A DNA stretch of 35,366 bases from Devosia psychrophila. GTDB lineage: Bacteria; Pseudomonadota; Alphaproteobacteria; Rhizobiales; Devosiaceae. Position 1 is the first letter of the stretch; every line of letters begins with the position of its first letter. The notes under the pieces were generated by a model that ran no database searches, had not been told where the DNA came from, and worked only from the letters and a program-made list of their open reading frames with translations. A program made the translations under genes and the position numbers. The stretch is taken from contig NZ_LAPV01000038.1 of the NCBI RefSeq assembly GCF_000971275.1, positions 1 to 35,366 on the forward strand. The letters run 5' to 3'. Shown here in pieces: positions 8,102-28,993 of the stretch.

Positions 8102-8115
8102 CTTGGGCAAATTGC

Positions 8116-12446: not shown

Positions 12447-13415
12447 TTAATTGATCTTCGCGGTGCGCCACAAAGAGTACCCGATGCCGCTCGCGAGGAT
12501 CGCGAATGTAATGCCGAGCGACCATTCAGCCGGGAATTTCTCCCATCCCAGAAGGTCAGCGACGAATATCTTCGAGCCGATGAAGACCAGCAGCACCGCC
12601 AGCGCCTGTTTGAGATAGGCAAAACGGTGAAGGATCGCGGCAAGGGCGAAATAAAGCGCCCGCAAGCCCAGGATGGCGAAGATGTTGGACGTGTAGACGA
12701 TGTAGGGATCCGTGGTGATGGCAAAGATCGCTGGCACCGAGTCCACGGCAAAGATGACGTCCGCGATCTCGATCATAACGAGCGCCAGGAAGAGTGGTGT
12801 CATGAAGCGTACCAAACGCCCCGTCTTGGGATCGGCTTGCCGCACGAAGAACTTGTCGCCATGCAGCTGTTCGGTGACGCGGAAGCGCCGCTTCATGAAT
12901 ACGAGGACCGGATTTTTACTGAGATCGGTCTCGCCGTGTCCAGGCATCATCATCCGAATGCCGGTGAAGATGAGGAAGGCTGCAAACACGTAAAGCAACC
13001 AGCCAAATTCGGACACGAGGGTTGCGCCGAAGCCGATCATGATCGCCCGCAGGACTATAACGCCCAGGATGCCCCAGAACAGCACCCGGTGCTGCAAGTG
13101 ACGTGGAATCGCCAGGTAGCCGAAGATCATGGCAATGACGAAGACATTGTCCATCGCCAGGCTCTTTTCGACCACGAAGCCTGTCAGGTATTCAAAGCCC
13201 GATTGAGCCCCCAACTGCCACCAGACGAAGCCGCCAAAGGCCAGCCCAAGCGCGATATAGAAGCCAGAAAGCATCAGGCTCTCGCGCACCTCGATTTCAT
13301 GGCCATCGCGGTGCAGTACGCCGAGATCGAAAGCCAGAAGCAGGGCCACAAGGCCCAGAAAGCCAAGCCACATCCAGAGCGGCTGGCCCAGGAAAATGCT
13401 GGTCAGGATGTCCAT
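12447..13415 (-). CDS. TerC/Alx family membrane protein
   Basis: 322 residues with about nine membrane helices and the TerC/Alx layout: an early acidic helix (LLAFDLGVLHRD), the conserved VEKSLAMDNVFVIAMIF near residue 80, and the second repeat VMIEIADVIFAVDSVPAIFA near residue 215, both carrying the Asp/Asn pattern thought to handle metal ions. Family members affect manganese homeostasis, alkaline response or tellurite tolerance. ATG 13415 has GGAG upstream. It follows the TerB-like gene at 13456 by 40 bases. No yybP-ykoY-type riboswitch is evident in that gap. Confidence 0.85.
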   Translation of the reverse strand: MDILTSIFLGQPLWMWLGFLGLVALLLAFDLGVLHRDGHEIEVRESLMLSGFYIALGLAFGGFVWWQLGAQSGFEYLTGFVVEKSLAMDNVFVIAMIFGYLAIPRHLQHRVLFWGILGVIVLRAIMIGFGATLVSEFGWLLYVFAAFLIFTGIRMMMPGHGETDLSKNPVLVFMKRRFRVTEQLHGDKFFVRQADPKTGRLVRFMTPLFLALVMIEIADVIFAVDSVPAIFAITTDPYIVYTSNIFAILGLRALYFALAAILHRFAYLKQALAVLLVFIGSKIFVADLLGWEKFPAEWSLGITFAILASGIGYSLWRTAKIN

Positions 13416-13455: not shown

Positions 13456-13938
13456 TCACATCTGGCTCCCATAGATCCCTAGTGCGAGCTCGACGCGGTG
13501 CAGGGCGCCCAGTTCCACGGGGTGGACAAGGCCATCGGCGGTGATCACCTGGTGGCAGGCATCGCGGATGGATTGCCGGTCGGTCGAGCCTAGCGCACTG
13601 ATGCTGAGGGTGGTCAGTGCCTGCTTTTCAGCGAGGTCAGGGGCGTAGCCAAAGGCGCGTGCATGGTGAGCCAGTTCCTCGGCCAGGTCGGCGACCGAAA
13701 ACCCTTCCATGGCTGGGCTGGCGAGAAATGCTTCAACCAGCTTTCGTCTTTCAGCCAAGGCCAGTTGTCCATCGGCATGGGCGATCACGGCAACGGCTGC
13801 CACCAGCGCCTGGAAGAAATCCTCCGCGCCAGCCCGGCTGGGTTCGTTACGCAGGTCGCGTTGATCCGCCTTTTGGCGCGCCCGCAGGCGAGCGCCACGC
13901 AGAAACAGGTCGTCCTGGGTCAGTTTGTCTTTTGTCAT
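13456..13938 (-). CDS. TerB-like protein
   Basis: 160 residues. Residues ~40-155 are an all-helical TerB-like domain (AVAVIAHADGQLALAERRKL, then a second acidic element VITADGLVHPVELGALHRVE). The two Asp-Gly turns are the typical TerB metal-site-like positions. ATG 13938 follows GAGAGGAG at good spacing. With terC it forms a two-gene operon; TerB-like proteins are cytoplasmic partners of TerC membrane proteins. The N-terminal ~35 residues are charged and probably flexible. Confidence 0.75.
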   Translation of the reverse strand: MTKDKLTQDDLFLRGARLRARQKADQRDLRNEPSRAGAEDFFQALVAAVAVIAHADGQLALAERRKLVEAFLASPAMEGFSVADLAEELAHHARAFGYAPDLAEKQALTTLSISALGSTDRQSIRDACHQVITADGLVHPVELGALHRVELALGIYGSQM

Positions 13939-14173: not shown

Positions 14174-14585
14174 TGTCCGGCGTCAGCATCCATGGCACAG
14201 ATTCAGGGTTGAGAATTAAGGCGTGATTTGGTCTCGTCGCACGACGAAGTAACCAAGATGACCACCAAATCCTCGAACACCAAAGAGCCTGCCGGGCAGG
14301 TGGTGAAGGACATTCGCCGGGCGACCCGACTGCACGTTACAGCCGGAGACAAAATCCGGATAGTGCTTCCCGGCTTGCGTGGAGAAGACAGCATAGCAGA
14401 GCTTTGCCGCAAGAAACGCATCCCCCAGAGCCTGTATTACACCTGGTTTAAGGAGTTCATGGGGGCGGGCAACCGCTCCCATCCACAGTCATATTGGCGG
14501 CGTCAGTCCCGAGGCGTTCGAAGCCGACGCGGTGTGAGGCTGGGAAATGTCTGCCAGACAGGGGGGCAGTCCAGTGATCAGGACA
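14174..14585 (+). mobile_element. IS3-family element, internally deleted
   Basis: The left end (TGTCCGGCGTCAGC at 14174) matches the end of the element at 1-494. The right end is placed at 14585, where the minus strand also begins TGTCC and the broken lysR' sequence starts. Inside, the first ~70 codons of orfA (ATG 14258) run directly into the last ~20 codons of orfB (HSHIGGVSPEAFEADAV, stop at 14537), with the junction near 14470. The element cannot transpose on its own. It cuts lysR'. Confidence 0.65.
14258..14537 (+). pseudogene. IS3 OrfA-OrfB deletion remnant
   Basis: The orfA part reads KIRIVLPGLRGEDSIAELC and LYYTWFKEFMGAG, close to the copy at 36-410, then ends. The orfB tail (SHIGGVSPEAFEADAV) follows in a different frame. 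All catalytic residues are gone. Confidence 0.6.
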
Positions 14586-14670
14586 TTTCCGCCGAATTAG
14601 TCCGTGTGAGACTGCCGTCATGCGCGGCAGCCTGGAAATAGTGAAGGTGGATAAGATTGGCGCCTCCCAA
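14586..14670 (-). pseudogene. LysR-type regulator, N-terminal remnant (lysR')
   Basis: The minus-strand frame from TTG 14670 reads NLIHLHYFQAAAHDGSLTRT, the first half of a LysR helix-turn-helix. It is a clear relative of the intact LysR at 26103 (NLNFNHLQYFWAVAHEGSLT). It is cut by the IS3 end at 14585. Position and orientation mirror the intact dab locus. Confidence 0.65.
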
Positions 14671-14687
14671 TCGTTCTATTTTAACGA
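14671..14687. promoter_or_regulatory. Putative LysR operator, TCGTT-N7-AACGA (remnant locus)
   Basis: A 17-base dyad, TCGTT-CTATTTT-AACGA, lies directly upstream of the lysR' start. The same dyad with the same spacing but a different centre lies at 26085 in the intact locus. LysR-type sites are often short interrupted dyads of this kind. Confidence 0.5.
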
Positions 14688-14775
14688 ATGATATCTCCAA
14701 AACAATGAATTTTCGCCACGCAATGCTCTCTTGTAGAAATGTAACCAAATAGAGTGCGCGCCGAAGGGAACAATT

Positions 14776-15147
14776 TTGCCAACCCATTTCTTTCGACTGC
14801 TGGCAATCGTTCCGCTGCTCGCCAGCGAAATCATCGGCTTCTCGAACACGGGGCTTAGGCTCCCCCGTGATCTGACACCGGAGATCGCCGGGCTACCCCG
14901 GTTCGCACATCCTGTGTCAAACGCCCCCGACAGTGCCATCACGCTCATCGCCTTCGTCGTTCATCGGCTGGGTTTTCGGGATGTGCCCTCGAGAACCTGC
15001 TTCCACCAGTTGCTCATGACTCTGAGCGGCTGGCGTTACGCTCGCGACCTCCGGTGGCCTGAGATGAACGATGCCGTCCTTGTCGAACCGCAGCTAAGGG
15101 TTGCGGTCAGAGGGCCAGTGCGCTCAGTCAACCAAGACGATCGGTAA
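14776..15147 (+). pseudogene. Chimeric dabB'-dabA' remnant
   Basis: The frame starts with TTG 14776 after GAAGGG, exactly as in the intact dabB. Residues 1-26 (PTHFFRLLAIVPLLASEIIG, then FSNTG) match the DabB N-terminus. After a junction near 14865, residues from [12 protein letters not shown] through DSAITLIAF to [15 protein letters not shown] match an internal part of DabA (about residues 190-260). A large deletion has thus joined dabB to dabA in frame. Only one membrane helix and no metal ligands remain, so no transport is possible. It runs into cysD on the same strand. Confidence 0.75.
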
Positions 15148-15160
15148 AAGGATCTCACCC

Positions 15161-16066
15161 ATGAAAGGCAGCGCGACCCATCTCTCAGCGTTGGAATCAG
15201 AAGCCATGTACATCATCCGCGAGGTCGTCGCGGAAGCGCGCAACCCCGTTATGCTGTTCTCGGCGGGCAAGGACTCTACCGTTATGGCGCACTTGGCCCT
15301 GCGCGCCTTCCACCCGAGCAAGCCGCCCTTCCCGCTCCTCCATGTCGATTCGACATGGGAATTCCGATCGCTTCTTGAGTTCCGCGATGCCTTCGCACGC
15401 GACCATGGGCTTGACCTGATCGTTTACGCCAACGAAGCGGGCCGCCAGCAGGGGATCAATCCATTTGACCATGGCGAGCACTACACCCGGATCATGCGAA
15501 CCGACGCACTCAAGTCGGCACTGGATGCAGGTGGCTATGATTTCATTCTTGGTGGAGCACGGCGCGATGAAGAAAAGTCTCGCGCCAAGGAACGCATCTT
15601 CTCGATCCGCAATGCAAACCACGTGTGGGACCCGCGACAGCAGCGGCCCGAACTTTGGAAACTTTTCAATACACGAATCTCTCCGGGGCAGACGGTTAGG
15701 GTCTTTCCGCTTTCGAATTGGACGGAGAACGATGTTCTGGCCTACGCGCTTTGGCGAAAGATCGAGCTGGCCCCACTTTACTTCGCCACGCCTCGTCCTG
15801 TCGTCGAGAGAGGGGGATCTCTCGTCGTCGTCGATGATGAGGCACGCATGCGGTTTCTCAAAGACGAGAAACCTGTTTTGCGATCCGTGCGGTTTCGCAC
15901 GCTCGGGTGCTGGCCCGTGACCGGCGCAATCCCCTCGAACGCTGTCGACATACGAGGTGTTGTTCTCGAGACCTCCGCGTCTATGACGTCTGAACGGCAA
16001 GGACGGATCAACGACGGCGAAGAAGGGGGATCGCTCGAGAAGAAGAAGCAGGAAGGGTACTTCTGA
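15161..16066 (+). CDS. cysD: Sulfate adenylyltransferase subunit 2 (CysD)
   Basis: 301 residues, close to the usual CysD length. Motifs in order: the PP-loop VMLFSAGKDSTVMAHLALRA near residue 30, GGARRDEEKSRAKER near residue 130, RVFPLSNWTENDV near residue 180, RFRTLGCWPVTGAI, and the C-terminal SERQGR ... EKKKQEGYF. CysD makes adenosine phosphosulfate from ATP and sulfate, driven by the GTPase CysN. No cysN is present here, where normally cysDN are adjacent. ATG 15161 has AAAGGAT upstream. The stop overlaps the DUF6671 start (TGATG), so the two are translationally coupled. CysN must come from elsewhere, or the protein has another role. Confidence 0.9.
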   Translation: MKGSATHLSALESEAMYIIREVVAEARNPVMLFSAGKDSTVMAHLALRAFHPSKPPFPLLHVDSTWEFRSLLEFRDAFARDHGLDLIVYANEAGRQQGINPFDHGEHYTRIMRTDALKSALDAGGYDFILGGARRDEEKSRAKERIFSIRNANHVWDPRQQRPELWKLFNTRISPGQTVRVFPLSNWTENDVLAYALWRKIELAPLYFATPRPVVERGGSLVVVDDEARMRFLKDEKPVLRSVRFRTLGCWPVTGAIPSNAVDIRGVVLETSASMTSERQGRINDGEEGGSLEKKKQEGYF

Positions 16067-16935
16067 TGCTTCGTCCCAACATGGGGCCCTATCAGAACAT
16101 TGCTGCGGTGCTGACCTCGATGCACGCCAAGGAGCGTGTCATCGGGCCGATCTTGCTAGACGAACTGGGATTGATCATCGGATTGGCGGAGGGCGTCAAC
16201 ACCGATCAATTCGGCACTTTCAGTCGTGAAGTTGAGCGGACGGGGTCTCAGCTAGATGCCGCCAGAGCCAAGATCGCCGTCGGCTTTCAACATGCGCCTT
16301 CCGCACGCGTCGGTTTGGCAAGCGAAGGCAGCTTCGGACCGCATCCTTACATCCCCTTCCTGGCGATCGGGCGCGAACTCGTTCTGATGGTCGATCGAGA
16401 GAGCGGCCTCGAACTGACCGGATACGATGCCAGCCCGGACACCAACTTTGGCCACGCTGTTGCGCGAGATCGCGAGGCGGCCCTCGCCTTTGCGCAGCGC
16501 GTTCGGTTTCCCGAGCACGGTCTGATCGTCATGGGCTGTCGGGACGAACAGCCTGCTCCTGACCTTCTGCTCATCAAGGACATTACCGACGTGACCGCAC
16601 TTGAAGCGGCAGTTCAGGAAGCCATTAGGCTTTGCGGCGCCGCCTTTGTCGAAACCGACATGCGGGCGCACCGCAACCCAACTCGCATGACCGCAATCGA
16701 GCGCGCGACACGTGATCTGGTGCGTCGGTTTCACAGTCAATGCCCGAATTGCGGCCATCGCGGCTTCGATGTGGTGGAGCGCATTCCCGGACTGCCTTGC
16801 GCGTGGTGCGGCGAGCCGACGAACGTGATCATGGCCGAAGCTCTCACCTGCCAATCATGCGGATACAGCGATGAACGATCAGTGGCAACTGCGCCCACAG
16901 CGGATCCCGGCCAGTGTTATGGGTGTAATCCCTAA
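16066..16935 (+). CDS. DUF6671 family protein with C-terminal zinc-ribbon motifs
   Basis: 289 residues. The N-terminal ~220 residues have the DUF6671 pattern: ASMHxKE-type start (TSMHAKERVIGPILLDELGL), GVNTDQFGTFSREVER, ASEGSFGPHPYIPF, and ETDMRAHRNPTRM near residue 205. The C-terminus carries four CxxC pairs (CPNCG, CAWCG, CQSCG, CYGC), enough for two zinc sites. The conserved Asp/Glu/His residues suggest an enzyme or metal-binding protein; the function is unknown. It is coupled to cysD by a 1-base overlap, so a role linked to the CysD product or to the same stress is plausible. Confidence 0.7.
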   Translation: MLRPNMGPYQNIAAVLTSMHAKERVIGPILLDELGLIIGLAEGVNTDQFGTFSREVERTGSQLDAARAKIAVGFQHAPSARVGLASEGSFGPHPYIPFLAIGRELVLMVDRESGLELTGYDASPDTNFGHAVARDREAALAFAQRVRFPEHGLIVMGCRDEQPAPDLLLIKDITDVTALEAAVQEAIRLCGAAFVETDMRAHRNPTRMTAIERATRDLVRRFHSQCPNCGHRGFDVVERIPGLPCAWCGEPTNVIMAEALTCQSCGYSDERSVATAPTADPGQCYGCNP

Positions 16936-16977
16936 AGCTCGAGCAAATGAACCCTCATACAGGATCAGAGATTTGAG

Positions 16978-17217
16978 ATGAACAACAGTTTTGAACCGAA
17001 AAAACCAGGAATCAAAACCGAATCCGCGATGGAGAGGCAAATTTCTTTTGTTCTGGCCCATCCCGGTATGAGCGCATGGTTGAAGACCGCTTTGAGCGAT
17101 GCGCTTCATCGCGATCCGATCTCAGTCCTGAACGACTTGGAGATTCTCAATCTCATTCTGCGCAATCGATCAGAGATGTTGATCGCCGAGAAATACAGTT
17201 CACATGATCCCCGCTAA
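16978..17217 (+). CDS. 79-residue protein of unknown function
   Basis: A small, mostly helical cytoplasmic protein (ERQISFVLAHPGMSAWLKTA, SVLNDLEILNLILRNRSEML) with a basic, unstructured N-terminus. Not recognised. It follows DUF6671 by 42 bases on the same strand, so it is probably the last gene of the cysD operon. It ends 33 bases before the end of the convergent pyrC gene. The start ATG at 16978 has only a weak ribosome site. Confidence 0.5.
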   Translation: MNNSFEPKKPGIKTESAMERQISFVLAHPGMSAWLKTALSDALHRDPISVLNDLEILNLILRNRSEMLIAEKYSSHDPR

Positions 17218-17226
17218 CGCTTGCTT

Positions 17227-17243
17227 TCTGCCTTTAGGGCAGA
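17227..17243. terminator. Small hairpin between convergent operons
   Basis: The stem TCTGCC/GGCAGA with the loop TTTAG lies in the 33-base gap between the 79-aa gene and pyrC, which face each other. It lacks a T-run on either strand. It may serve as a weak bidirectional terminator. Confidence 0.35.
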
Positions 17244-17930
17244 GAGGAATCTATAGGCTCCGGCCTAGGATAGACCATCGAAGGGCTTCACCAGCATGGA
17301 ATGGGACGAGATCCGATCCGTCCAACTCGATCTTTTCCGGGACGCGATTTTGGCGCCGCTCCAACGCTACGAAGGTTTCGTTAAGCGGAAGATCATAGAA
17401 GCGCGGGCCGTTCTCCGATGCGAAGGCTTCGAGATTATCGAACGCGCCTTCCTCATCAAATACCGTCGCATAACTTTCCAGCGCGAAGGGCGCGTTGAAG
17501 ATGCCAGCGCACCCGCAGGCGGATTCCTTGTCGCCGACGGCAAGGGGCGCCGAATCTGTACCAAGGAAGAATTTCGTCGAACCGGACGTCGCGGCCCTTC
17601 GCAAGGCGAGCCGATGCGGCTCTCGTTTGACGATCGGCAAGCAATAGAAATGGGGCCGGATACCGCCGTCGAACATAGCGTTACGATTGATCGTCATATG
17701 GTGCGGCGTGATGGTGGAAGCCAGATTCGGGCCGCTGGACTCCACGAATGCAACAGCGTCGGCGGTCGTGATGTGTTCAAAAACCACCTTGAGGGCCGGA
17801 AAGTCGGCAATCAGCTTTGCAAGTGTGCGTTCGATGAAGACGGCCTCCCGGTCAAAAATATCGACATCGCTGTCCGTGACCTCGCCATGCAGCAGCAGGG
17901 GCATGCCGATCCGCTGCATGACCTCAAGCA

Positions 17931-17935
17931 CTGAG
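17931..17935. repeat. Target-site duplication, left copy (CTGAG)
   Basis: CTGAG borders the left end of the IS701-like element. The identical CTGAG lies at 19316-19320 just outside the right end. Removing one copy with the element restores the pyrC frame. Confidence 0.8.
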
Positions 17936-17958
17936 CTCGACTTTGTACGATTTTCTGG

Positions 17959-18240
17959 TCATGTCCATGTCCAGAAGACGCCCTCATTTGCAATGAACTC
18001 GAGGGCATCGTCGAGAGGTATGACGACGCCGCCCATGTCATCGACGTCCTCCCATTTGCGCCGGTGTGACCAATATCCGAGCCGGACCTCCTCGCTTTGG
18101 CCTGTCGGCTTGAGCCGGGCAATCGGTGCCTCAGTTTCCAACAGATAGAGGTAGTAGGCGCCATTGTCCTTGTAGTAGCCCACGCCGCCGCCATTGGCGC
18201 GGTCGAAGGCTTCGATGCGGAGGGCGATATCGTCTTGCAT
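17959..18240 (-). CDS. 93-residue protein of unknown function carried inside the IS
   Basis: The frame from ATG 18240 encodes a compact, acidic protein (LRIEAFDRANGGGVGYYKDN, GAYYLYLLETEAPIARLKP, VVIPLDDALEFIANEG) that looks like a real alpha/beta domain rather than a shadow frame. I do not recognise the family. No good ribosome site is visible upstream. It lies between the left terminal repeat and the truncated transposase, opposite in strand, so it is either a passenger gene or a fragment picked up by recombination. Confidence 0.45.
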   Translation of the reverse strand: MQDDIALRIEAFDRANGGGVGYYKDNGAYYLYLLETEAPIARLKPTGQSEEVRLGYWSHRRKWEDVDDMGGVVIPLDDALEFIANEGVFWTWT

Positions 18241-18261
18241 GCGTCGATCATACACGGGAGC

Positions 18262-19315
18262 AAGTTGGGGACGCAGGATCACCGCGCGCGGTATCTATCG
18301 CGATCCCGTGCGTTCCAGTCATGGCCATTTCGTCAAGGCCAGCGGCTTGCGCTGGTTGAGCTTCATGGTGCTGACGCCGGTTCCGTGGGCGGGTGTCGTC
18401 AAGGCCCTGCCAGTGCTGACCCTGCTCGCTCCATCGGAGCGATCCGACCACCAGCGTGGCCTCAGGCACAAGCTGCTGACCGACTGGGCCCGCCAAGGTA
18501 TCCTGCAGCTCTGTCGCTGGTTGCCGGGGCGCGATATCGTCTTCGTGGGTGATAGCAGTTTTGCCGTCCACGAGTTGGCCCACGCCCCCCCGGGCCGGGC
18601 AACACTCATCAGTCGGCTTCGGCTCGACGCCAACTTCTTCGCACCCCCTGCCAGGCGGGACGCCCATACCATGGGGCGCCCGGCCCAGAAGGGACGCCCC
18701 TGCCCAAGCTGAAGACGCTACTCTCGAACCCGGCCACACCATGGCGCAAGATCACCGTGTCCGCATGGTATGGTCACAAGCAGGCAAAGACGCTCGAGAT
18801 CACGTCGGATACTGCCTTGTGGTACCGTCCTGGCATGCCCCCCAGGCCGGTCCGCTGGGTGTTGGTTAGGGACCCCGAAGGCAAGCGAGCCCCACGAGCC
18901 TTCTTCAGCACCGATATCGCTCTCGATCCCACAGACATCATGGCGCTGTTCGTTCGACGTTGGCAGGTCGAGGTTACCTTTGCAGAAACGCGGGCCCATC
19001 TGGGTGTCGAAACCCAGCGGCAATGGTCCGACAAAGCGATCGAACGGACTACCCCTGCCTTGCTCGGTCTCTATAGTTTCGTCTCGCTATGGGCTTGCGA
19101 TCGGCTAAGCACTGCCAGCACGCCCTATGCCGCGGCGTGGTATCGCAAGACCAACCTCACCTCCACCGACGCCATCGGCGCAGTCCGCCTCGCTCTGTGG
19201 GTCGGGGACATTTACCGACACTCTCCGCCAAACCGGGAACAACATAAAATCCCCCAGACCGTCTCGTCCGGATGGCCGAGGCCCTCTGCTTCGCCGCATA
19301 ATGTACAAAGTCGAG
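18262..19315 (+). pseudogene. IS701-like transposase, N-terminus lost and frameshifted
   Basis: Similarity begins at RITARGIYRDPVRSSHGHFV, so about 120 N-terminal residues with the first catalytic Asp are absent. FVGDSSFAVHELAHA carries the second Asp. Near 18700 one C is missing (CGCCCCTGCCCAAG should give RPLPKLKTLL), which shifts the frame; the rest follows from SAWYGHKQAKTLEI to the catalytic Glu region RRWQVEVTFAETRAHLG. The frame reads through the IS end into pyrC. No functional enzyme is made. Confidence 0.8.
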
Positions 19316-19320
19316 CTGAG
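19316..19320. repeat. Target-site duplication, right copy (CTGAG)
   Basis: Identical to 17931-17935 and directly outside the right terminal repeat of the IS701-like element. Confidence 0.8.
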
Positions 19321-19713
19321 TGGATGTTTCGGATGTCCGTGACGCCATGGGCCGAGTTTGTGGTGGCGTGCGCGGGATAAAGCTTGCAGGCTGTGAAGAC
19401 GCCTTCGGCAAAACCACGCTCGACTTCGCTGGCATCAATGGTGTCGGTGAGGTAGCAGGTCATCAAGGGGACAAAGACCAGGCCTGGCTCAAGAGCCGCC
19501 ACGATCCGTTCTCGATATGCCTTCGCGGCCGCGGCGGTCGTGATCGGCGGACTGAGACTGGGCATCACAATGGCCCGTGCAAACTGCCTGGCCGTGTAGT
19601 TGACGACGGATTTGAGCATCGCTCCATCACGAAGATGGACATGCCAGTCATCGGGGCGCCGAAGCCTCACGCTAGTCACAACTTTTTCGGCGCCGCCGGG
19701 AACGTCTGCGACG

Positions 19714-21477
19714 TCAGATGTCGGCATAGATGTGATCCTCGGCCGCAGCGCCAGGATGGGTCACGGCGCCATACCGGGCAGGGCCGACAGTCTGGGCATA
19801 CTTCCAGATTGTACCGGACTGAAAACCATGTCTGCGTGGCGCCCAGTTTGTGCGACGGGTCGCGAGCGTGGCATCGTCGAGCCGTATCGACAGGATGCCG
19901 GCGTCGGCGTCAATATCGATAATGTCGCCGTCTTCGATCAGCGCGATCGGGCCGCCAGTGGCGGCTTCCGGTCCGACATGGCCGATGCAGAGGCCCCTAG
20001 TCGCCCCCGAGAACCGGCCATCCGTGATCATCGCCACCTTCTCACCCATGCCTTGGCCATAGATGGCAGACGTGGTGGCGAGCATTTCCCGCATTCCAGG
20101 TCCGCCGCGTGGGCCTTCGTAGCGAATGACAATGACGTCGCCGGCCGCGTAACGGCGCGCCATAACGGCTGCAAAGGCGTCTTCCTCGCGCTCAAAGACA
20201 CGGGCGGGTCCGCTGAAGGTCAGCGTGTGAAGCCCGGCGACTTTAACAATCGCACCGTCGGGTGCGAGATTGCCCTTTAGCCCAGTCAGTCCGCCCGTGG
20301 GCGAAAGAGCGCGCGCAGTTGGAAACACAACATTCTGGTCGTTCGGCACGCAAACACCTGCAAGGTTTTCTGCAAGGCTCCGACCCGTCACAGTCAAACA
20401 TTCTCCGTGCAGGAAACCTCCATCGAGCAGCGCCTTCAGAACCACGGGTACGCCCCCGATATCGTAGACGTCCTTGGCAAGGTAGCGTCCGCCCGGCTTA
20501 AGATCTGCAATCAGCGGCGTTCTCTTGAAAATCTCTGCGACGTCGAAGAGATCGAATTCGATCCCTGCTTCGTGCGCCATTGCTGGGAGATGCAGCGCGG
20601 CGTTGGTTGACCCTCCCGTAGCGGCGACCACGGCGGCTGCGTTTTCGAGGGATTTTCTGGTGACGATGTCTCGTGGCCGGATGCCGCTTTTCAACAACTC
20701 CATGACCGCGCGGCCAGCAGCCTCGGCGTATCGGTCGCGGGATTCGTAAGGGGCAGGCGTTCCGGCCGAGCCCGGCAGGGCAAGACCTATCGCCTCGGAG
20801 ACGTAAGCCATGCTGTTGGCAGTATATTGACCGCCGCATGAGCCAGCCGATGGACAGGCGACAGTTTCCAACTCAGCAAGGTCCGCATCAGAGATTGTTC
20901 CAGCCGCATGGGCACCGACGGCCTCGAAGACGTCGAGCACCGTGACATCCTTTCCGCGAAACCGGCCCGGCAGGATCGATCCGCCGTAGAGGAAGACGGA
21001 CGGCACATTGAGGCGAAGCATTGCCATCATTAGGCCAGGCAGGGTCTTGTCGCAGCCCGCGAGCCCTACCAACGCATCGTAGCAGTGGCCACGGACGGTA
21101 ATTTCCACAGAATCTGCGATGACTTCCCGGCTGACCAGCGATGCTTTCATCCCGGCGTGGCCCATGGCGATGCCATCGGTAACAGTGATAGTTGTAAACT
21201 CGCGCGGCGTGCCACCTCCCGCAGTGACGCCACGCTTTGCGGCCTGAGCCTGACGCGAAAGCGTGATGTTGCAGGGAGCTGCCTCATTCCAGGTCGTCAC
21301 AACACCAACGAACGGCTGAGCGATCTCCTCGCTGGACAGCCCCATAGCGTAGAGGAACGACCGGTGTGGCGCGCGCTCTGGTCCAACTGTCGTATGGCGG
21401 CTTGGAAGTCGAGACTTGTCGAGCCGATTGGGTTGCTCTCCAATGGGTGGGACGGTGCCTTTGGGTCCGTTGGTCAT
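19714..21477 (-). CDS. ilvD: Dihydroxy-acid dehydratase (IlvD)
   Basis: 587 residues of the IlvD/Edd family. The Fe-S cysteines sit in [26 protein letters not shown] and [36 protein letters not shown] and [20 protein letters not shown] are typical of dihydroxy-acid dehydratase rather than phosphogluconate dehydratase. It converts dihydroxyvalerates to keto acids in valine/isoleucine synthesis in the cytoplasm. The start ATGA overlaps the stop of the HTH gene by four bases, and the 3' end overlaps pyrC by 14. Nothing in the active site looks degraded. Being outside an ilv cluster, it is probably a second copy. Confidence 0.9.
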
Positions 21478-21683
21478 GGCTGCGGCTCCGATTGTTGCGC
21501 CGCAGGTGCACGGTTAGCGTGGGCGTCGAGGAATTGTTCGAGGTCACGAACAGCGATCCGCCACTCACGACCGATCCGTATGGCTCTAACGTCGCCAGCC
21601 TTGATCAGTCCCCTCAACGTGGCCTCGCTCAACTTCAGAAGTTCGGCGGTCTCCTGCAGTGTCAGGAGTGGTTTGCGCAGCAT
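21474..21683 (-). CDS. Excisionase-family HTH protein
   Basis: 69 residues. Residues 6-55 form the MerR-like/excisionase helix-turn-helix ([39 protein letters not shown]), followed by a short Gln/Ala tail. Such proteins bind DNA, and some act as small regulators. It is the first gene of an operon with ilvD and pyrC (4-base overlap with ilvD), so it may control that operon rather than phage excision. No integrase is nearby. Start ATG 21683. Confidence 0.7.
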
Positions 21684-22018
21684 GACCAGAAGAGCCTCAT
21701 TCCCGTATGCTCAACTGCAGATTCGCCTGGGTGAGCGTTGTGCAACATAGTTTGGCATTAATAGACCGCACGATACAGCGAATTACGTCACCAGACACCA
21801 AAGCGTTGCAAAATTAGTCAAAACTGCTGGACGATCAGGCCCACATTGCGGACCGATTCAGTGAACGCCTTGGTTGACGCAGCCTTTCAGACCCGGGGCC
21901 TTCAAGCTGAAAGATTAGCAACCAATGCGGTCCTCAATGGCCAAGCAAGCGGGCAAAGCATGTGCCGGACGGTTTGTCCGTTTTATATTGCCCTTCATTT
22001 TTCAAACCGCTAGTCGAT
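21684..22018. other. Intergenic region between dabA and the HTH-ilvD-pyrC operon
   Basis: 335 bases without a convincing gene. It must hold the promoter of the HTH-ilvD-pyrC operon and the 3' end of the dab transcript, both on the minus strand. A short dyad GGACGGTTTGTCC at ~21968 is followed on the plus strand by TTTTAT, but no plus-strand gene leads to it. No TCGTT-N7-AACGA dyad is seen here. Confidence 0.4.
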
Positions 22019-24418
22019 CTACTGCTGGCTGTGAACGTTGCTCATCTCAGTCCATTCTAGATTGCCGGCGTACCGCCAAGCCATCCGCCCCGTTTCTTCA
22101 AGGGCAAACAGATGCAGCCAGCCGTTGTCAAACAGGGCCCGCACGTTGTCGTGGCGGCTCAGAACATCGCTCATCGCCTGGCACGGCGCCTCGATACACA
22201 CTGAAAGACGGAGCGGTTCGTGGGCATATTCTTCGCCGTCATGGACCGATTGCCACGGCAGCCCAGCCCTGAGCAGCCCCCCATTGCCCTCAACCACACC
22301 AATTCCGCCGGTGACATTGTGTAGGAGCTTGTTCCCACCACCGAAGACCTCGGGCGCGACCGTTGATCCGTAATACTGCAGGCTGATCCAGCTCGCGACC
22401 ACGACCGGCGCCGTGAGGATCAATTCCAGAACGCCGAAGCTTCCGTCTTGCTTCCAGTCGTAGTCATGCAAGAAAGCTTGTCCCTCCAAGTTCTTTCCCG
22501 CCGTGCGCTGTCTTGGTGCTGCGATGAACGCCTTGCATCCGGCGAGTGCCCATTCAGGCCGCGTCTCTGCCCAGTCGCGACTGCGCTTTGCAACATCTTT
22601 TTCGCCTGCTGCCCGCGGCAGCCGGAGGGCGCGCTCTCCCCGGGCGAGCTTGCCCGCCGCAGCGAGCCACGCACTGACGTGACCGATATCGGTGCGATGG
22701 GTGTCGGAGGCCTGATCTTGGGCGAAAAGGGTCACCTGATCGGTTGTTGTATCGTGCAGCGCCGCCAGGAAAAGCGTGTCCGAAGGAATGTCGATCCCGT
22801 TCGTCGCCAACCCCGTCCTCACAGCCGGATCGTTCAGCAGAGCAGCAAGCAGGCGGGCATTGACGTCTCCTGCATGGCCTCCGCAGGCGCCGCAATGGAG
22901 CCCGCTGGCGTGCGGGTTGTTGGCGACATTGGCGCCGTGCCCGGCCAGCAAGACGAGCCGCGCAAAGCCGGTGGTCAGCGACATTGCCCGAAGCACCGTC
23001 TCGGCAGCCGCGGTTCGGGTTTCAAGATCCAACGCTGGGTCGAGACGGGGCGCGGGATCGCTCGTCGCAGGCGCGCCGTTAAGGCCCAGGGCATCGCTCA
23101 AGAGCTCGCCGACATAGATCGGACCCGTTGCCTCGACAAAGGCGAAGGAGGAAACTGCGGCAAGCTTGAACCGTCCCCAGGCGCGCGTCGCCCGCGCCTT
23201 GATCCGCGCGGACTGATCAGCTGCCGCAAAGTCCGATGTCCCTGAGTGGGACTTGATTGCTGGCTTGAGCAGCACTGGCAACCGCAACTCCTCGACGTCG
23301 GACGCAAAGCGACGGTGCGCCGTGGTAAGTCCGAAAAAGCCAGCGAAGCCGATCGTCTGTATCCGTGGGTTCACGCTTTCGAGTGCACGGCGGAGAACCT
23401 CTGAGCGCACGTCGATGCAGAATGCGGCCTGCAGCAATGGACGAACTTGGTTTGTCTTTGGAGATGGTGTCGCCAGTATCTCTGCAAGCGCCCGCTGGGC
23501 CGAGCGCTCGGCTGCTTCTTGCAGTATCGCGTCGCTCACGAGGTCAGGAGTTGCTTCGACCACAGCGGCATGCTCTGCCCTAGCACTCGCCCACTTTTCG
23601 GCAATTTGCTGGCCATATCGAAGGAACAAAGTCTCTTCCCAGATCAGTCGGATTGCGATGAAATCTGTGATTGTTTGGTCCGATCCGCCGGCGAGTTCTG
23701 CTTGCCAGAGCTCGTAGCGGGCATACTGCGCCCAGCCGCCCAGTGTCATCAGCAACTGATGGAAGTAGGTTTCTGATGCCATAGTCTGAAGGCCCAGCCG
23801 AGGGGCGGCGCGGGCGATCAGTATGATGGCACTATCTGGGGCGTCTGCGACATGACGGGCAAATCCGGGCAGGCCGGCGATTTCTGGCGTTAGGTCGTGG
23901 GTGGCCACGGCCTGCCAGGCCGCATAGGCGCCCTTGCCATTCGGCGCAGCCCAAAGTGCCTGTCCCTTGTCGAAGTATCCTGCCGCCCAGGCACCAAACC
24001 GCTCGGCGATTAGGCCCGGCCAGTCGATACCGGAGACATCGGCGGCGAGATCTGCGATCGTTGGGATAGCCTTGGGCTTTGGCACATCCAAAGCTGCAGC
24101 AACCTTGAGGGCAGCCAGATCTGCTGGCCTCAAATGCGCCGGCGCCTTCGTCCAGGCCGCCAACAGGTCCTCGTCGGATATCGCGCCGCTTGCAATCTTC
24201 GCACTAAACCACCCCCTTGGCATGGTTACGGCGACACCCGCGACCCGGGCAAGTCGTGCGCCCGCTATTGCCAGACTCTCGCCGGTCTGCCCGAGGAAGG
24301 GGTTAACGGCGACGCTCGACGCCAGAGGCCAAAGAGGAGGAACGGCCCGAGCCGCACGATCCGCCGCGGTCTCGAAGAATTCCAGATCGGCCAGCACCGA
24401 AGGATCGGTTTGAGACAT
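22019..24418 (-). CDS. dabA: Inorganic carbon transporter subunit DabA
   Basis: 799 residues of the DabA (DUF2309/UPF0753) family, the cytoplasmic, carbonic-anhydrase-like zinc subunit of the DAB bicarbonate uptake system. The four metal ligands known in Halothiobacillus DabA are visible: Cys and Asp in FCIDVRSE, His in [11 protein letters not shown], and Cys in GLHCGACGG 15 residues later, the spacing found in the known protein. It is thought to hydrate CO2 vectorially, driven by ion flow through DabB. I start at ATG 24418, with GGAG upstream; a TTG at 24424 adds two residues. It follows dabB by 18 bases. Confidence 0.92.
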
Positions 24419-24436
24419 GTTCAAGCTCCAGATTGA

Positions 24437-25996
24437 TCAATGTGCGCTGCGGGTGGACCAGCCACCGACCAGGCGATCGAAGACCGCATTTGCGTAAAAG
24501 CCGTTGGAGAGGTGTACGCGAAGGCCGGCGGCGGCAGGGTGATAGGCCCACAGCGGGAACATCGCCTGGACGATGGCGACAAGGGCGAAGCTGATAACCG
24601 CTAGTACGATGAGCGCCCATTCCAGGGGCCCTGGAGCTGGTGTGAGCGGCAGAAGGCCCGTGGTGATTGAAGTCGCGGCTGCCTGCAGCGCGAAGTAACC
24701 GACCGAGGTCGCTACGGCGTAGACCGCAGTGCGTCGGGTAAGCGCTTTCGGCGCGGTGTCAGCGAACCCTTGCGCAAGCATATAAGCGACACCAAAGATC
24801 AATATTGCGCCGAGTGCGATGACCTGTGGCGTCTTGTGCGCAAGCCCGAAGCTGAGACCGACAACCAAGTATATAGCGAGCGCTGCAACAAAGGCACGCC
24901 CCACCGCAGCGGCGTTCGGGATCGCAACGGGCCCCGGTCTTCGGATCGCGGCGACCCTTTCCACGGCGCCGCCGGATGCGAGAAAAGAATGCGCCTTGTA
25001 CAGAGAGTGCGCCACGATATGCAGCAGCGCTATAGGGAACAACGCCAGTCCGCACTGCAAAATCATGAAACCCATCTGTGCAACAGTCGACCAGGCAAGT
25101 GAGGTTTTCACTGCCGGCTGAGTCAGCATGACAAGGCTGCCGAAGAGCGCTGTAAAACCGCCGATCATCACCAGTATTGCGAGGACGGCGGGGGCAAGAA
25201 GCATGACGTCAGCGAAGCGGATCAGCAGAAAACCGCCCCCATTGACCACGCCCGCATGCAGGAGCGCCGACACCGGCGTAGGTGTCTCCATGACTTCGGT
25301 CAGCCAGCCATGCGTTGGAAACTGGGCAGACTTGAGGACCGCAGCGAGTGCCAGCAGGCTTGCCGCCCCGATCGCCAGGCTGCCGCCTGCGCCCGCACGG
25401 GCGGCCTGCAGGATAGAGCCAATATCGGTCGTGCCATAGGCAGCCGCCATCAAAGCGGCGGCGCCAATGAGCGCACTATCTCCCAGGCGCGCGGTGACAA
25501 ACTTCTTGCGCGCAGCGCGTTGCCCAGCAGCTCGATCGGGATAAAACAGCAGTAGTCGGTGCAGAAACATACTGGTGGCAATCCATGCCAGAGCCAATTG
25601 GAAGAGATTGCCGGCGGTGACAAACAGCATCACTGAGGCGAGCGTCAGGCAGAGCCAGCCGGTGAAGGGACCTTGCCGGTCCTCGCCGTCAAGATAGGTT
25701 CCGGCATAGCGGACGACGATCCACCCAATAAAGGTCACAAGGACCATCATCACGGTGCTGACAGCGTCCAGCCGGACCGAAAAGCCGATATCGTAAATCC
25801 CAATCACAGGACTGACGCTAGGCCCAAAAGCGATGAGCCCCCCCGTTGAAACGATGGCTGCGACAAGCGCAAGGAGCGCGGTGGCTTCAGCCAGTTTGGG
25901 GATGCGTTTGGGCCGAGGCCCTGTGTTCGAGAAGCCGATCACCGAGCTGACAAGCAGAGGAACGGTTGCCAGCACTGGCAAGAAATGGATTGGCAA
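24437..25996 (-). CDS. dabB: Inorganic carbon transporter subunit DabB (NuoL-like)
   Basis: 519 residues with about 14 membrane helices, related to NADH dehydrogenase subunit 5 and Mrp antiporter subunits. KSAQFPTHGWLTEVMETPTP, then VSALLHAGVVNGGG, is the conserved proton-channel region. DabB couples a cation gradient to DabA. The start is TTG 25996 after AAGGGG; the decayed copy at 14776 keeps the same TTG and ribosome site, which supports it. Divergent from lysR, with the dyad at 26085 in between. Confidence 0.92.
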   Translation of the reverse strand: MPIHFLPVLATVPLLVSSVIGFSNTGPRPKRIPKLAEATALLALVAAIVSTGGLIAFGPSVSPVIGIYDIGFSVRLDAVSTVMMVLVTFIGWIVVRYAGTYLDGEDRQGPFTGWLCLTLASVMLFVTAGNLFQLALAWIATSMFLHRLLLFYPDRAAGQRAARKKFVTARLGDSALIGAAALMAAAYGTTDIGSILQAARAGAGGSLAIGAASLLALAAVLKSAQFPTHGWLTEVMETPTPVSALLHAGVVNGGGFLLIRFADVMLLAPAVLAILVMIGGFTALFGSLVMLTQPAVKTSLAWSTVAQMGFMILQCGLALFPIALLHIVAHSLYKAHSFLASGGAVERVAAIRRPGPVAIPNAAAVGRAFVAALAIYLVVGLSFGLAHKTPQVIALGAILIFGVAYMLAQGFADTAPKALTRRTAVYAVATSVGYFALQAAATSITTGLLPLTPAPGPLEWALIVLAVISFALVAIVQAMFPLWAYHPAAAGLRVHLSNGFYANAVFDRLVGGWSTRSAH

Positions 25997-26084
25997 GGTT
26001 GTCCCCTTCGACGCGCACTTCGATTTGGAGGCTTTTTAGGGCAGCGCATCGCGCGGCGAAAATTCATTGTTCTGTCGCTATCGT

Positions 26085-26101
26085 TCGTTTAAACAGAACG
26101 A
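26085..26101. promoter_or_regulatory. Putative LysR operator, TCGTT-N7-AACGA
   Basis: The dyad TCGTT-TAAACAG-AACGA lies between dabB and lysR, ending one base before the lysR start codon. It is kept with identical arms and spacing in the decayed locus at 14671 although the 7-base centre differs. It is a candidate binding site for the adjacent LysR protein, acting on both divergent promoters and on its own gene. Confidence 0.55.
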
Positions 26102-26102
26102 G

Positions 26103-27002
26103 ATGAGAAATTTGAACTTCAACCACCTCCAATACTTTTGGGCGGTCGCCCATGAAGGCAGTCTCACACGGGCCGCAGATCATATGAATCTGTCGCAGTC
26201 GACGCTGTCGGTTCAGATACAGAAACTCGAACATCAGATCGGCCACCCGCTCTTTGAGCGAGTGGGCAAGAAACTCATCCTGACCGAGGCCGGTCAGATC
26301 GCGCTCGACTATGCAGATACCGTTTTCAAGGCCGGCGATGAATTGCTAAGCACCCTGCAAGGTCGCCCTTTGGCAAACCGTCAGATCCTCAGCGTCGGGG
26401 CGCTCACGACGCTGTCTCGAAACTTTCAACTTGAGTTCCTTCGGCCGCTTGTCGGCCGTTCCGACGTGGAACTCATCGTTCGCTCCGGCAATATCCGCGA
26501 CCTTCTTGCCCAGTTGGAGGCTCACGCCGTCGACGTCGTCCTGGCTAACAGCGCTGCGCCGCGGGATGCTCGCACATCACTGCGTAACCACCTGCTCAAT
26601 GAGCAGCCGGTCAGCTTGGTCGGCCGGCCGAGAACGGACAAACCGAAGTTCCGCTTCCCGGACGACTTGCGAACTGAGCCCCTACTTTTGCCAAGTCTGG
26701 ACAGCGACATCCGCGTGGCGTTCGACCGAGTTCTCGAAATGGCTGGGATCAGGCCGATTATACACGCCGAGGTCGACGATATGGCCATGCTACGTCTACT
26801 GGCGCGTGAGCGCGAGGGTGTCACGTTGGTACCGCCGATCGTTGTGCGCGACGAACTGGAGGCCGGGATTCTTGTTGAGCACTGTCGCATACCGGATGTC
26901 ACTGAGCGCTTCTACGCAATTGTGAAGAAACGACGTTTTCCGAACCGCTTGCTTCTCGACGTGCTTGGAATCTACAATTCGGCGACACCGACCTCCATCT
27001 AG
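26103..27002 (+). CDS. LysR-type regulator of the dab operon
   Basis: 299 residues. Residues 1-60 are the LysR winged helix-turn-helix (NHLQYFWAVAHEGSLTRAAD, LSQSTLSVQIQKLEHQIGHP), followed by a linker helix and a ligand domain (RQILSVGALTTLSRNFQLEF onward) of the type-2 periplasmic fold. I choose ATG 26103 instead of 26067 because the conserved dyad ends directly before it and the first residues MRNLNFNHL match the family start. LysR genes divergent from dabBA are known to respond to inorganic carbon; here the ligand is inferred. Confidence 0.85.
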   Translation: MRNLNFNHLQYFWAVAHEGSLTRAADHMNLSQSTLSVQIQKLEHQIGHPLFERVGKKLILTEAGQIALDYADTVFKAGDELLSTLQGRPLANRQILSVGALTTLSRNFQLEFLRPLVGRSDVELIVRSGNIRDLLAQLEAHAVDVVLANSAAPRDARTSLRNHLLNEQPVSLVGRPRTDKPKFRFPDDLRTEPLLLPSLDSDIRVAFDRVLEMAGIRPIIHAEVDDMAMLRLLAREREGVTLVPPIVVRDELEAGILVEHCRIPDVTERFYAIVKKRRFPNRLLLDVLGIYNSATPTSI

Positions 27003-27436: not shown

Positions 27437-28993
27437 CGAGGCTGTGTGAGAACTCGGCGCAGCTGATCGCTCACGTTGTTTGTGTGGCACGCGTCGGCTC
27501 CGTTCACCCCGTTATCGCTTTGAGGGTCGCGGCAACGCCGGCAACGGCGATGGCGCGCTTGAGATTGTAGGCAGGATCGTCAGGCTGGTTTCGGTGGCGA
27601 CGTTCTTTATCCCTTGTGTTCGGAAGTGGGTGGCGCCCATCCAGCCTTGGTGCCGAAGACGTGCTCGACAGTACAGCGGCGAACCGCCATCGCTTCAGGC
27701 ATCGCCTCGAGCCTACGCTCCATGGCATCAAGCACCGCTTCGTACTCCCATCGTCGGATGCGCTTCTCTTTGCCGGCCATACACAGAGGACGGGATGGGC
27801 AGCACCACAGGCCTTGTGGTTGAAGCAAACACCGATCAGCTTGCCGCCTTCTGCCCTGGCGAAACGCTTCTGCAGCTGCTGGCCAAGAGGGCAGCGGTAG
27901 GTGTCGGTCCCGGGCTCATGCACGAACATGGTTTTGCCCCAGAAGCCGCGGGCCTGAGCCGGTGAGATATTCGGCTCGGGCACCATCGCGATGATGCCAG
28001 CTTCGTCGCAGGAGCGGATCTGCTCGCCCTCATAGTAGCCACGATCGGCAAGGGCGATCATCTCAGCATCGACAGTCTCTGCCTGTGCAGCTTTTGCCAT
28101 CTCCAGCAGGTGCGAGCGGTCATGGCCTCGGTTGGTCACCGCATTGGCCACCACAATATGGTGCTCGGTATCGACAGCCGCCTGGACGTTGTAACCGACC
28201 ACGCCGCGATGGTCGCTTCCGGTCGCCATGGCGCGGGCATCCGGATCTGTCAGCGAGATCTGCTCATCGGGAGCCGCTTGCAGTTGCCGGCCAATCTCCT
28301 CGAGCTCGCCGAGCCGACCACGCAGAGACGCCAATCGTTCGGTCGGGTGCTCGATCCGCGGCGTGGCCGGTCCGTTCTCTGCACGGTCCGTTTCCTCAAG
28401 CTCGGCGAGATAGCGCGATGCTCTCTTCGACATGGGCCTTCCGGCGCAACAGCTTGCCCTTGGTATAGTTCTTCTCGTGCGTGCTTACCGCGCGCAAGCG
28501 TGACCCGTCGATGGCCACCATGCCGCCGCCGACCAGGCCAAGGGCACGGCAGATGGCAACGAAGCACCGGCATGCGATCTGAATGGCGCTGGCATGGTCA
28601 TGGCGGAAGTCGGCAATGGTCTTGAAGTCCGGTACCAGCTTGCCGATCAGCCACATCAACTCGATATTGCGACCGGCCTCGCGCTCCAGCTTCCGGCTCG
28701 ACGTCAGCTGATGCAGATATCCATAGACGTAGAGCTTGAGCATGGTCCCGGTGCGTAGCCGGGCCTGCCAGTAGATGCCGGTTGGACACGCGCGAAGCCG
28801 AGTTCGGCCAGATCGAGCTCCTCGACAAAGGCATCGATGATGCGAACCGGATTATCCGCATCCACATAGTCTTCGAGACAAGCCGGCGGAAAGCTCTCCT
28901 GCTGTCGGTCAGCAACTTCAACGAAACGTCCCATGGGGCACTTCCGAAGCGGTGACTGATCATATCATAATCAGGAGTTTTCACACAGCCTCG
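27437..28993 (-). mobile_element. IS1182-family element, both ends present
   Basis: The ends form an imperfect inverted repeat of 19 bases: CGAGGCTGTGTGAGAACTC at 27437-27455 and the complement of CGAGGCTGTGTGAAAACTC at 28975-28993. Between them lies one transposase gene on the minus strand, broken by frameshifts. No clear target duplication is seen in the flanks. Confidence 0.75.
27504..28934 (-). pseudogene. IS1182-family transposase, several frameshifts
   Basis: Order from the start: FVEVADRQQESFPP with GRPGYAP, then a shift near 28740 (one G missing before ACC-ATG), then LKLYVYGYLHQLTSSRKLER and VAIDGSRLRAVSTHEKNYTK with the first catalytic Asp. A second shift lies near 28418 (two bases missing in GCGC-TAT). 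Next come VVGYNVQAAVDTEHHIVVAN and LADRGYYEGEQI with the second Asp. After further shifts near 27820 and 27610, RRCTVEHVFGTKAGW carries the Glu, and the end reads YNLKRAIAVAG. At least four shifts make it inactive. Confidence 0.85.

Follow-up and report, generated by a model that had tools for sequence, protein, structure and literature searches.

The stretch of DNA analyzed here (the window) is a complete contig of 35,366 nucleotides (C172, NZ_LAPV01000038.1) from Devosia psychrophila, whose draft genome comprises 4.52 Mb in 239 contigs. It contains genes for a predicted bicarbonate importer (DabA and DabB), a DUF6671 protein, a 79-residue protein (p79), and the biosynthetic enzymes CysD, IlvD, and PyrC. 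We lean towards reading the region as a partly decayed copy of a recurring set, in which the DabAB importer is grouped with second copies of enzymes predicted to be CO2-dependent that would keep pyrimidine and branched-chain synthesis going at low CO2. With somewhat less confidence, short of an even chance, we propose that heterotrophs exchange a mobile "CO2-concentrating mechanism without Rubisco", composed of an importer (DabAB or SbtA), DUF6671 as a dedicated nucleotide-binding protein, and a modular choice of extra CO2-dependent enzymes (IlvD, PyrC, FolC/Mur ligases, TsaC, FwdA, BioD, and carboxylases). The low-CO2 reading is drawn from gene neighbourhood, because a need for CO2 or bicarbonate is common to the enzymes and they lie beside an importer.

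The neighbourhood was scored in a table of 35 DUF6671 loci that were not selected by dabA, namely 12 plasmids and 23 genome loci. Two weak DUF6671 matches were excluded from the table (G228, 49 bits with internal stops; G627, 20.8 bits and under the cut-off). Neighbours were accepted above a floor of 100 bits and 35% identity, lowered to 50 bits for RaiA and p79, which are small proteins. This floor excludes CysN matches, weak CcrA matches (L007, L046, L205, and L222), and, next to the DUF6671 gene of Methylocystis, a FolC piece of 51 bits. The controls were 41 importer loci without DUF6671, of which 27 came from the 45 loci of a DabA scan (short or cut loci and loci already counted in the DUF6671 table being excluded), and 20 random windows from genomes of the same list. 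Some loci end early at contig ends, so the counts are lower bounds.

Of the 35 loci, 25 (11 of 12 plasmids and 14 of 23 genome loci) have an importer, DabA or SbtA, no more than 12 kb from DUF6671, compared with one of the 20 random windows (Fisher p about 1e-6). The lone positive random window is on the island contig of genome G055, about 50 kb off, and contains SbtA, LysR, TerB, and TerC. In two further loci the importer is found just past the limit, with dabA at about 13 kb in Methylocystis and SbtA at about 12 kb in G011. All 12 plasmid records carry an importer on the stretch examined, DabA in eight and SbtA in four (one unannotated); the identity of SbtA was confirmed with PF05982 in four genome loci. 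Among 385 genomes of the class, DUF6671 is found in 14 and DabA in 48, and DabA is present in 8 of the 14 genomes with DUF6671 versus 40 of the 371 without. The original prediction had guessed that the genes serve when CO2 or another nutrient is short. The CO2 part of this guess gains support from the link of DUF6671 to two unrelated bicarbonate importers. A third transporter family stands beside DUF6671 in L118 (5455–8115), where dabA, DUF6671, and a SulP gene with a STAS domain, possibly a BicA-like bicarbonate carrier, run in one direction.

Five actinobacterial plasmids also encode PII proteins of about 100 residues (PF00543, 62–85 bits, cut-off 25) that are annotated as "transcriptional regulator". 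The PII gene lies beside SbtA on three Arthrobacter plasmids (L179, 10354–10656; L181, 10332–10634; L183, 10448–10750) and beside DabA on Mycolicibacterium and Nocardia plasmids (L186, 7536–7856; L187, 4884–5183). A PII protein next to SbtA is as expected of a regulated importer; PII is possibly also a partner for DAB, which is less expected.

The enzymes scored within 12 kb of DUF6671 were IlvD, PyrC, FolC or MurF, TsaC, and the group of FwdA, BioD, crotonyl-CoA carboxylase (Ccr), and acyl-CoA carboxylase. At least one of these CO2-linked enzymes is present in 12 of the 35 DUF6671 loci, versus 2 of the 41 importer controls (p 0.002) and 1 of the 20 random windows (p 0.019). These p-values are optimistic, since the islands inspected early on contributed part of the list of enzymes. 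The choice of ilvD (present in 5 of the 12 plasmids) and pyrC (2 of the 12) alone preceded the inspection of the plasmids. The two positive importer controls are L008, which contains the window's own HTH-ilvD-pyrC arrangement (HTH, helix-turn-helix), and L214, whose IlvD is of the housekeeping type. The positive random window, L225, contains the long-type ilvD of G714. Among eight control plasmids with an importer but without DUF6671, one has an ilvD gene 9 kb away, again of the housekeeping type. Plasmid-borne pyrC as such does not bring the set along: the pyrC regions of Klebsiella, Variovorax, Serratia, Falsirhodobacter, and Novosphingobium plasmids (10–12 kb on each side; 5 of 124 records) contain no importer, DUF6671, ilvD, tsaC, folC, or terC. 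Pyruvate kinase was rejected as a constant member. Only G011 and G104 have it close to DUF6671; in the other five of the six genomes with a Pyk match (E 1e-80 among the 385 genomes; the host included), neither an importer nor DUF6671 is beside it.

Bicarbonate is a substrate of TsaC, and CO2 or bicarbonate is one for BioD, Ccr, and acyl-CoA carboxylase. FolC, MurF, and FwdA are among the enzymes that carry a carboxylysine. According to the excerpts available of the respective papers, IlvD/EDD enzymes bind Mg via a carboxylated lysine (PMC9314677); carboxylated Lys102 bridges the zinc ions of the E. coli dihydroorotase, a position occupied by aspartate in the Aquifex enzyme (PMC3880350); MurE, a Mur ligase, contains a carbamylated lysine (PMC3829189); and Rubisco needs a carbamylated lysine, as covered in a review of lysine carbamylation (PMC8920986). 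All 10 island IlvDs compared and all five PyrC copies inspected retain the carboxylation-site lysine. The window IlvD and the N-terminal half of its PyrC have the lysine known to be carboxylated, from which carboxylation and a need for CO2 are predicted here.

The set recurs, in varying order, in unrelated bacteria and on plasmids. In the 45 loci of the DabA scan, cysD or a fragment of it stands directly behind dabA or DUF6671 in 12 (L007, L008, L009, L012–L015, L018, L032, L037, L038, and L042), DUF6671 is present in seven (L012, L015, L018, L024, L027, L039, and L042, with a 48-residue match in L040 left uncounted), and p79 in five (L013, L015, L031, L042, and L045). The arrangement dabB-dabA-cysD-DUF6671-p79 recurs as an operon. 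One of the 45 loci, L008 of Asticcacaulis sp. AC402, contains HTH-ilvD-pyrC, which lies beyond lysR. Among 101 near relatives, four genomes, the host being one of them, carry DUF6671. Two of these, G011 and G055, which are of the same genus, share a LysR gene followed by pyrC-ilvD-cysD-cysNC-DUF6671. In G055, dabB-dabA lies about 2.6 kb from pyrC, which places dabBA and pyrC-ilvD-cysD-cysNC-DUF6671 inside about 14 kb. The island contig of G011 also contains SbtA, folC, icd, and pyk, and another folC is on its contig C20. In G104, from another family, one contig end contains dabA-cysD-DUF6671-p79 and a second contig end contains dabBA-lysR-folC-DUF6671-pyrC-ilvD-terB-(pyrC piece)-pyk-DUF533-terC; another folC and another ilvD are located on its contigs C7 and C12.

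Plasmids provide further examples. Plasmid pSDM007 of Pseudomonas hygromyciniae contains, all in the same orientation, raiA-orf-terC-DUF6671-pyrC-ilvD-tsaC-murF-sbtA, and its LysR gene is preceded by cysD and a partial cysNC; its tsaC match is partial and its murF is split over two frames. About 26 kb of Methylocystis rosea pGW6_1 contain two fwdA genes, ilvD, pyrC, DUF6671, acyl-CoA carboxylase beta, bioA, cysD, ccrA, bioD, and dabA-dabB-lysR. Adjacent to or interspersed with them are pyruvate dehydrogenase genes, an acetate-CoA ligase gene, and a formate dehydrogenase delta gene, none of which enters the argument. Fuscovulum ytuae has dabB-dabA-DUF6671-ilvD, Nocardia cyriacigeorgica has dabBA with tsaC-HTH-DUF6671, and two Arthrobacter plasmids have SbtA next to DUF6671-ilvD. 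The Arthrobacter sp. U41 plasmids (L179 and L181) come from the deep water of Lake Untersee, which we take to be strongly alkaline and CO2-poor; a paper search did not confirm this character of the lake. In G811 and G714, a tsaC gene above the model cut-off is next to LysR, DUF6671, cysD, and dabA, and another tsaC is found elsewhere. In all genomes tested (this one, G011, G055, G104, G811, and G714), the scored accompanying enzymes are second copies. The sub-operons, which the original prediction took to be a co-transferred set of second copies, thus occur together in G055, G104, Asticcacaulis sp. AC402, and pGW6_1, and both their co-occurrence and their status as second copies are supported. 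Transfer as one fixed block is not supported, as the internal order varies. Because orders differ between islands, the set appears to have been repeatedly assembled or shuffled rather than inherited as one block.

In the window, the gene order and strands are as first described: cysD, DUF6671, and the p79 gene on the plus strand; pyrC, ilvD, an HTH gene, dabA, and dabB on the minus strand; and lysR on the plus strand. The two operons converge at about 17220–17250. Genes within them overlap tightly, with one common base (16066) between cysD and DUF6671, 14 bp between ilvD and pyrC, and 4 bp between the HTH gene and ilvD. Second host copies, the presence of which had been proposed as a check, are found on other contigs for all three enzymes: a class-I dihydroorotase on C28 (NF006559, 768 bits), a long-type IlvD on C49 (NF009103, 1153 bits), and LysR-cysD-cysNC on C52 (L146, 236–4483). 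These copies rule out the island genes as the sole housekeeping ones.

The ilvD gene (19714–21477, minus strand) encodes a short, [2Fe-2S]-type dihydroxyacid dehydratase (TIGR00110, 671.8 bits; NF002068, 846.4 bits) with both the cluster cysteine and the lysine of the CDK motif. Its identity with the C49 copy is 38%, and a cysteine stands where the latter has a glycine. Upstream of ilvD is the gene of a 69-residue excisionase-type HTH protein (21474–21683, minus strand; TIGR01764, 42.3 bits, cut-off 28.8), a homologue of which, 94% identical, precedes ilvD in Asticcacaulis. The pyrC gene, a class II dihydroorotase, is not intact, contrary to the first description. It is interrupted by an insertion sequence (IS), and its halves score as two separate TIGR00856 matches, the N-terminal half at 19323–19727 (model positions 2–113) and the C-terminal half at 17251–17931 (positions 120–340), both on the minus strand. 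The window pyrC is dead. The lysine corresponding to the carboxylated residue of E. coli PyrC (motif CKLYPA) is retained in its N-terminal half. Class II PyrC scores above the TIGR00856 cut-off in 6 of 41 genomes, this one included. Judged by their sequences, the island PyrC and IlvD are of different types from the host's housekeeping enzymes.

The dabA gene (22019–24424, minus strand) matches PF10070 with 867 bits (cut-off 25) and is the only one in the host genome by a search with this profile. Directly upstream on the same strand is dabB (24437–25996), which matches NuoL-type models, encodes the proton-channel-like partner, and is 47–83% identical to dabB of the kin loci from the DabA scan. 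Together they are predicted to form a bicarbonate importer. The divergent regulator gene lysR (26103–27002, plus strand; profile match) adjoins dabB, as it does in most dab loci where the contig extends far enough. The LysR ahead of the host's own cysD-cysNC on C52 is 48% identical to this dab LysR, a resemblance that suggests that the regulators of dab and of sulfate activation share a lineage.

A lysR/dabB/dabA remnant lies at 14602–15067 (plus strand, the lysR part on the minus strand), as identified by BLASTP and BLASTN against the right-hand locus. It comprises the 5′ end of lysR, the lysR-dabB intergenic (promoter) region, and segments corresponding to DabB 1–31, DabA 177–240, and DabA 783–796. 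The dabB and dabA pieces are joined in one short open reading frame (ORF) left of cysD, with two internal deletions. Compared with the right-hand locus, its DNA is 75.5% identical over 261 bp and 73.9% identical over 165 bp. Of the mirrored dab copies described earlier, the left remnant is real, but this low identity of 74–75%, together with a different gene tail, rules out a recent mirror duplication. We read the remnant as the collapsed head of its own, older dabB-dabA-cysD-DUF6671-p79 operon, the tail genes of which were left standing.

The first of these tail genes, cysD (15161–16066, plus strand), starts with the ATG at 15161 and encodes a 301-residue sulfate adenylyltransferase small subunit (TIGR02039, 417.6 bits, cut-off 396.6). 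No cysN is beside it, the next gene being DUF6671; cysNC instead accompanies the host's other cysD, on C52. Another, shorter CysD type (about 264–288 residues, 35% identical to that of the window) also adjoins dabA or DUF6671 in L004/L108, L018, and L037, so that two CysD lineages are present. The p79 gene (16978–17217, plus strand) has 51 database matches, is found in 7 of the 35 DUF6671 loci, and recurs directly behind dabA, cysD, or DUF6671. The protein has no Pfam match, and its AlphaFold2 (AF2) model is all-helical with three helices (predicted local distance difference test (pLDDT) score, 86.1).

The DUF6671 protein (16066–16935, plus strand; PF20376, 167.9 bits) matches no other Pfam family above cut-off and belongs to a large family, with 4651 matches among 8000 candidates scored. 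Its AF2 model (pLDDT 94.9) predicts an ITPase/YjjX-like fold with an inserted ATP-grasp-like piece (residues 127–200) and a C-terminal cysteine-rich, zinc-ribbon-like part. The insert and the cysteine-rich C terminus distinguish it from the known nucleotide-binding fold of ITPase, YjjX, Maf, and HcgB. A comparison of the model with a viral fold library returned ITPase-type and scattered weak matches.

A low-CO2 function could operate as follows. LysR would turn on dabBA when inorganic carbon is low, the importer would raise cellular bicarbonate and CO2, and the extra enzyme dosage would offset the uncarboxylated enzyme fraction. DUF6671, as its ITPase-like fold hints, may bind a nucleotide and act for the importer, perhaps in sensing or regulation. 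PII, which lies beside the importer on five actinobacterial plasmids, is a nucleotide-sensing type of protein. With a dead pyrC and a collapsed dab copy, at best dabBA, ilvD, and cysD-DUF6671-p79 can act in this genome.

Several observations weigh against the low-CO2 reading. No scored CO2-linked enzyme is present in 23 of the 35 DUF6671 loci, and no importer is near in eight (L117, L122, L123, L125, L160, L161, L205, and L206), six of which have the lowest family scores in the table. The sample is small, flank lengths vary, and the loci are partly related, including two plasmids of one Arthrobacter strain and the same-genus pair G011 and G055. CysD is present in 11 of the 35 DUF6671 loci versus 2 of the 41 importer controls, and TerC lies within 12 kb of DUF6671 in 10 of the 35 versus none of the 41; both are tied to DUF6671 as strongly as the CO2-linked enzymes are. 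Pyruvate kinase and DUF533 recur in two islands and RaiA in three, and isocitrate dehydrogenase is found in one with remnants in a second. We know of no CO2 dependence for CysD, TerC, pyruvate kinase, or RaiA. The CDK lysine is also retained in the long IlvD on C49, and a comparable stretch of the class-I dihydroorotase contains a lysine. Because these lysines are present, the housekeeping enzymes are probably CO2-dependent too, which makes added dosage likelier than replacement.

The island might instead collect robust enzyme versions that resist oxidants, oxygen, and toxic metals or oxyanions, the importer being one more stress gene. An O2-stable [2Fe-2S] IlvD would back up the [4Fe-4S] IlvD, CysD would offset sulfate-competing oxyanions, and TerB/TerC and ChrA would handle metals. 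We regard this as unlikely on balance, yet it keeps real weight: the cysteine criterion places the island IlvDs compared in the [2Fe-2S] type, and TerC is a repeated neighbour, in the 10 loci counted above. A cysteine, in place of the glycine of [4Fe-4S] enzymes, marks [2Fe-2S] dihydroxyacid dehydratases according to an excerpt of PMC9543379. This cysteine is present in 10 of the 10 island IlvDs compared, and a glycine is found in two housekeeping copies and in the control L214. A chromate transporter gene (PF02417) follows in G011, and a CusA/CzcA efflux gene lies about 19 kb from the Methylocystis DUF6671, but each occurs in one island only. The other ilvD of G104 is as short as the island copy, so the island does not always bring a change of type. 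Stress resistance also leaves unexplained why a bicarbonate importer is the usual partner and why TsaC, FolC, MurF, BioD, and crotonyl-CoA carboxylase, which are not iron-sulfur enzymes, are included.

Two further explanations were considered. Possibly only dab and DUF6671 form a true operon, and ilvD, pyrC, folC, and the others are chance cargo of mobile, IS-rich regions in decay. Variable gene order between islands, the broken pyrC and collapsed dab of the window, the split murF and partial tsaC and cysNC of the Pseudomonas plasmid, and the fragmentary state of the cysD adjoining dabA in several loci all fit such accretion. It is nevertheless quite unlikely, given that the same enzyme types occur in Alphaproteobacteria, Gammaproteobacteria, and Actinomycetota beside two unrelated importers, that all 10 island IlvDs compared are of one type, and that ilvD is near DUF6671 in 5 of 12 plasmids while the pyrC regions of the five control plasmids lack importer, DUF6671, and ilvD. 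Alternatively, DabAB and DUF6671 may serve sulfate assimilation together with CysD, the remaining genes being loosely attached. CysD is indeed the commonest enzyme of the set, counting the 11 DUF6671 loci and, with fragments, the 12 dab loci, and a relative of the dab LysR precedes the host's cysD-cysNC. We find a sulfur or oxyanion module highly doubtful, since DUF6671 pairs with SbtA, of a bicarbonate transporter family, in loci without cysD, and many dab-DUF6671 loci also lack cysD.

The proposed low-CO2 set resembles several known systems. Its right-hand dab locus is an ordinary DAB pair: DAB/MpsAB operons contain the same two adjacent genes, encoding DabA (DUF2309) and the NuoL-like DabB, with a divergent LysR gene in most kin loci. 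The known ones serve Rubisco of autotrophs or general bicarbonate supply, whereas here cysD-DUF6671-p79 and extra enzymes are added. CO2-concentrating clusters likewise group an inorganic-carbon importer with CO2-dependent enzymes in the form of a carboxysome and Rubisco, but the set here comprises anabolic enzymes of heterotrophs and occurs on plasmids. Among the genes listed, none was recognised as belonging to Rubisco or a carboxysome, although no search aimed at these was made. In the SbtA-SbtB system, a symporter is paired with a PII regulator; here SbtA replaces DabAB beside DUF6671 in several islands, with PII adjoining SbtA on the three Arthrobacter plasmids. The differences are the extra neighbour DUF6671 and the PII that adjoins DabA on two actinobacterial plasmids, PII having been looked for in actinobacterial loci only. 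Zur-regulated zinc-sparing paralogues such as PyrC2 constitute duplicated-enzyme stress islands. They share with the present set the gathering of second housekeeping copies with an import system, but the common property here is dependence on CO2 or bicarbonate, not zinc (zinc regulation was not tested).

In the portions of open-licence papers covered by a literature search, there was no DAB locus with cysD-DUF6671-p79 or with an extra ilvD, pyrC, or folC, no such island, no paper on DUF6671, and none of relevance on DabA or DabB with cysD. As far as we could see, the grouping of dab with DUF6671, cysD, p79, and extra CO2-linked enzymes on mobile DNA is undescribed. To our knowledge, the carboxylation of lysines by free CO2 is generally regarded as a spontaneous reaction that does not become limiting in cells. 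If the low-CO2 reading is true, CO2 supply would limit core anabolism (nucleotides, branched-chain amino acids, folate, cell wall, and the t6A modification of tRNA) in alkaline, CO2-poor, or oxygen-rich habitats. The weak points at low CO2 would then be enzymes that need carboxylysine or bicarbonate, and not only the classical carboxylases. The reading also suggests a first role, in inorganic-carbon uptake, for the DUF6671 family, and it is directly testable by growth in CO2-free air.

The set extends past the limits originally drawn for the region. Outside them, terC (12447–13415; PF03741) and terB (13456–13938; PF05099), both on the minus strand, are neighbours that recur in like islands elsewhere. 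In L234 (G055:C89:60001–80000), about 50 kb from the G055 island, SbtA, LysR, TerB (66%), and TerC (89% identical to that of the window) are grouped at 6443–10088. TerB-TerC seems to travel with bicarbonate importers.

Mobile elements are found within and around the region. A megablast search with 14200–27002 found no plasmid record covering 80% of the block, so a single plasmid record carrying the whole block was rejected by this search; the partial matches listed are to dab and to the transposase of the IS inside pyrC. This IS (17929–19322, 1394 bp) has 20-bp inverted ends matching at 19 of 20 positions. Its transposase is degenerate, split into several frames and without its N-terminal part, the place of which is occupied by a DUF3024-like ORF (17959–18282, minus strand; 18.1 bits, under the model cut-off of 24.9). 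A DUF3024-annotated gene is also near dabBA on a Mycolicibacterium plasmid. The ORF at 5871–6620 corresponds to the N-terminal part of the same transposase family and is 83% identical over 107 residues to the one in pyrC; by this match, the contig has at least two occurrences of the IS family. Transposase ORFs or remnants, as judged by ORF reading with HTH_Tnp_1 below cut-off, also lie on both flanks of the region, at 14228–14641 and 27504–28934.

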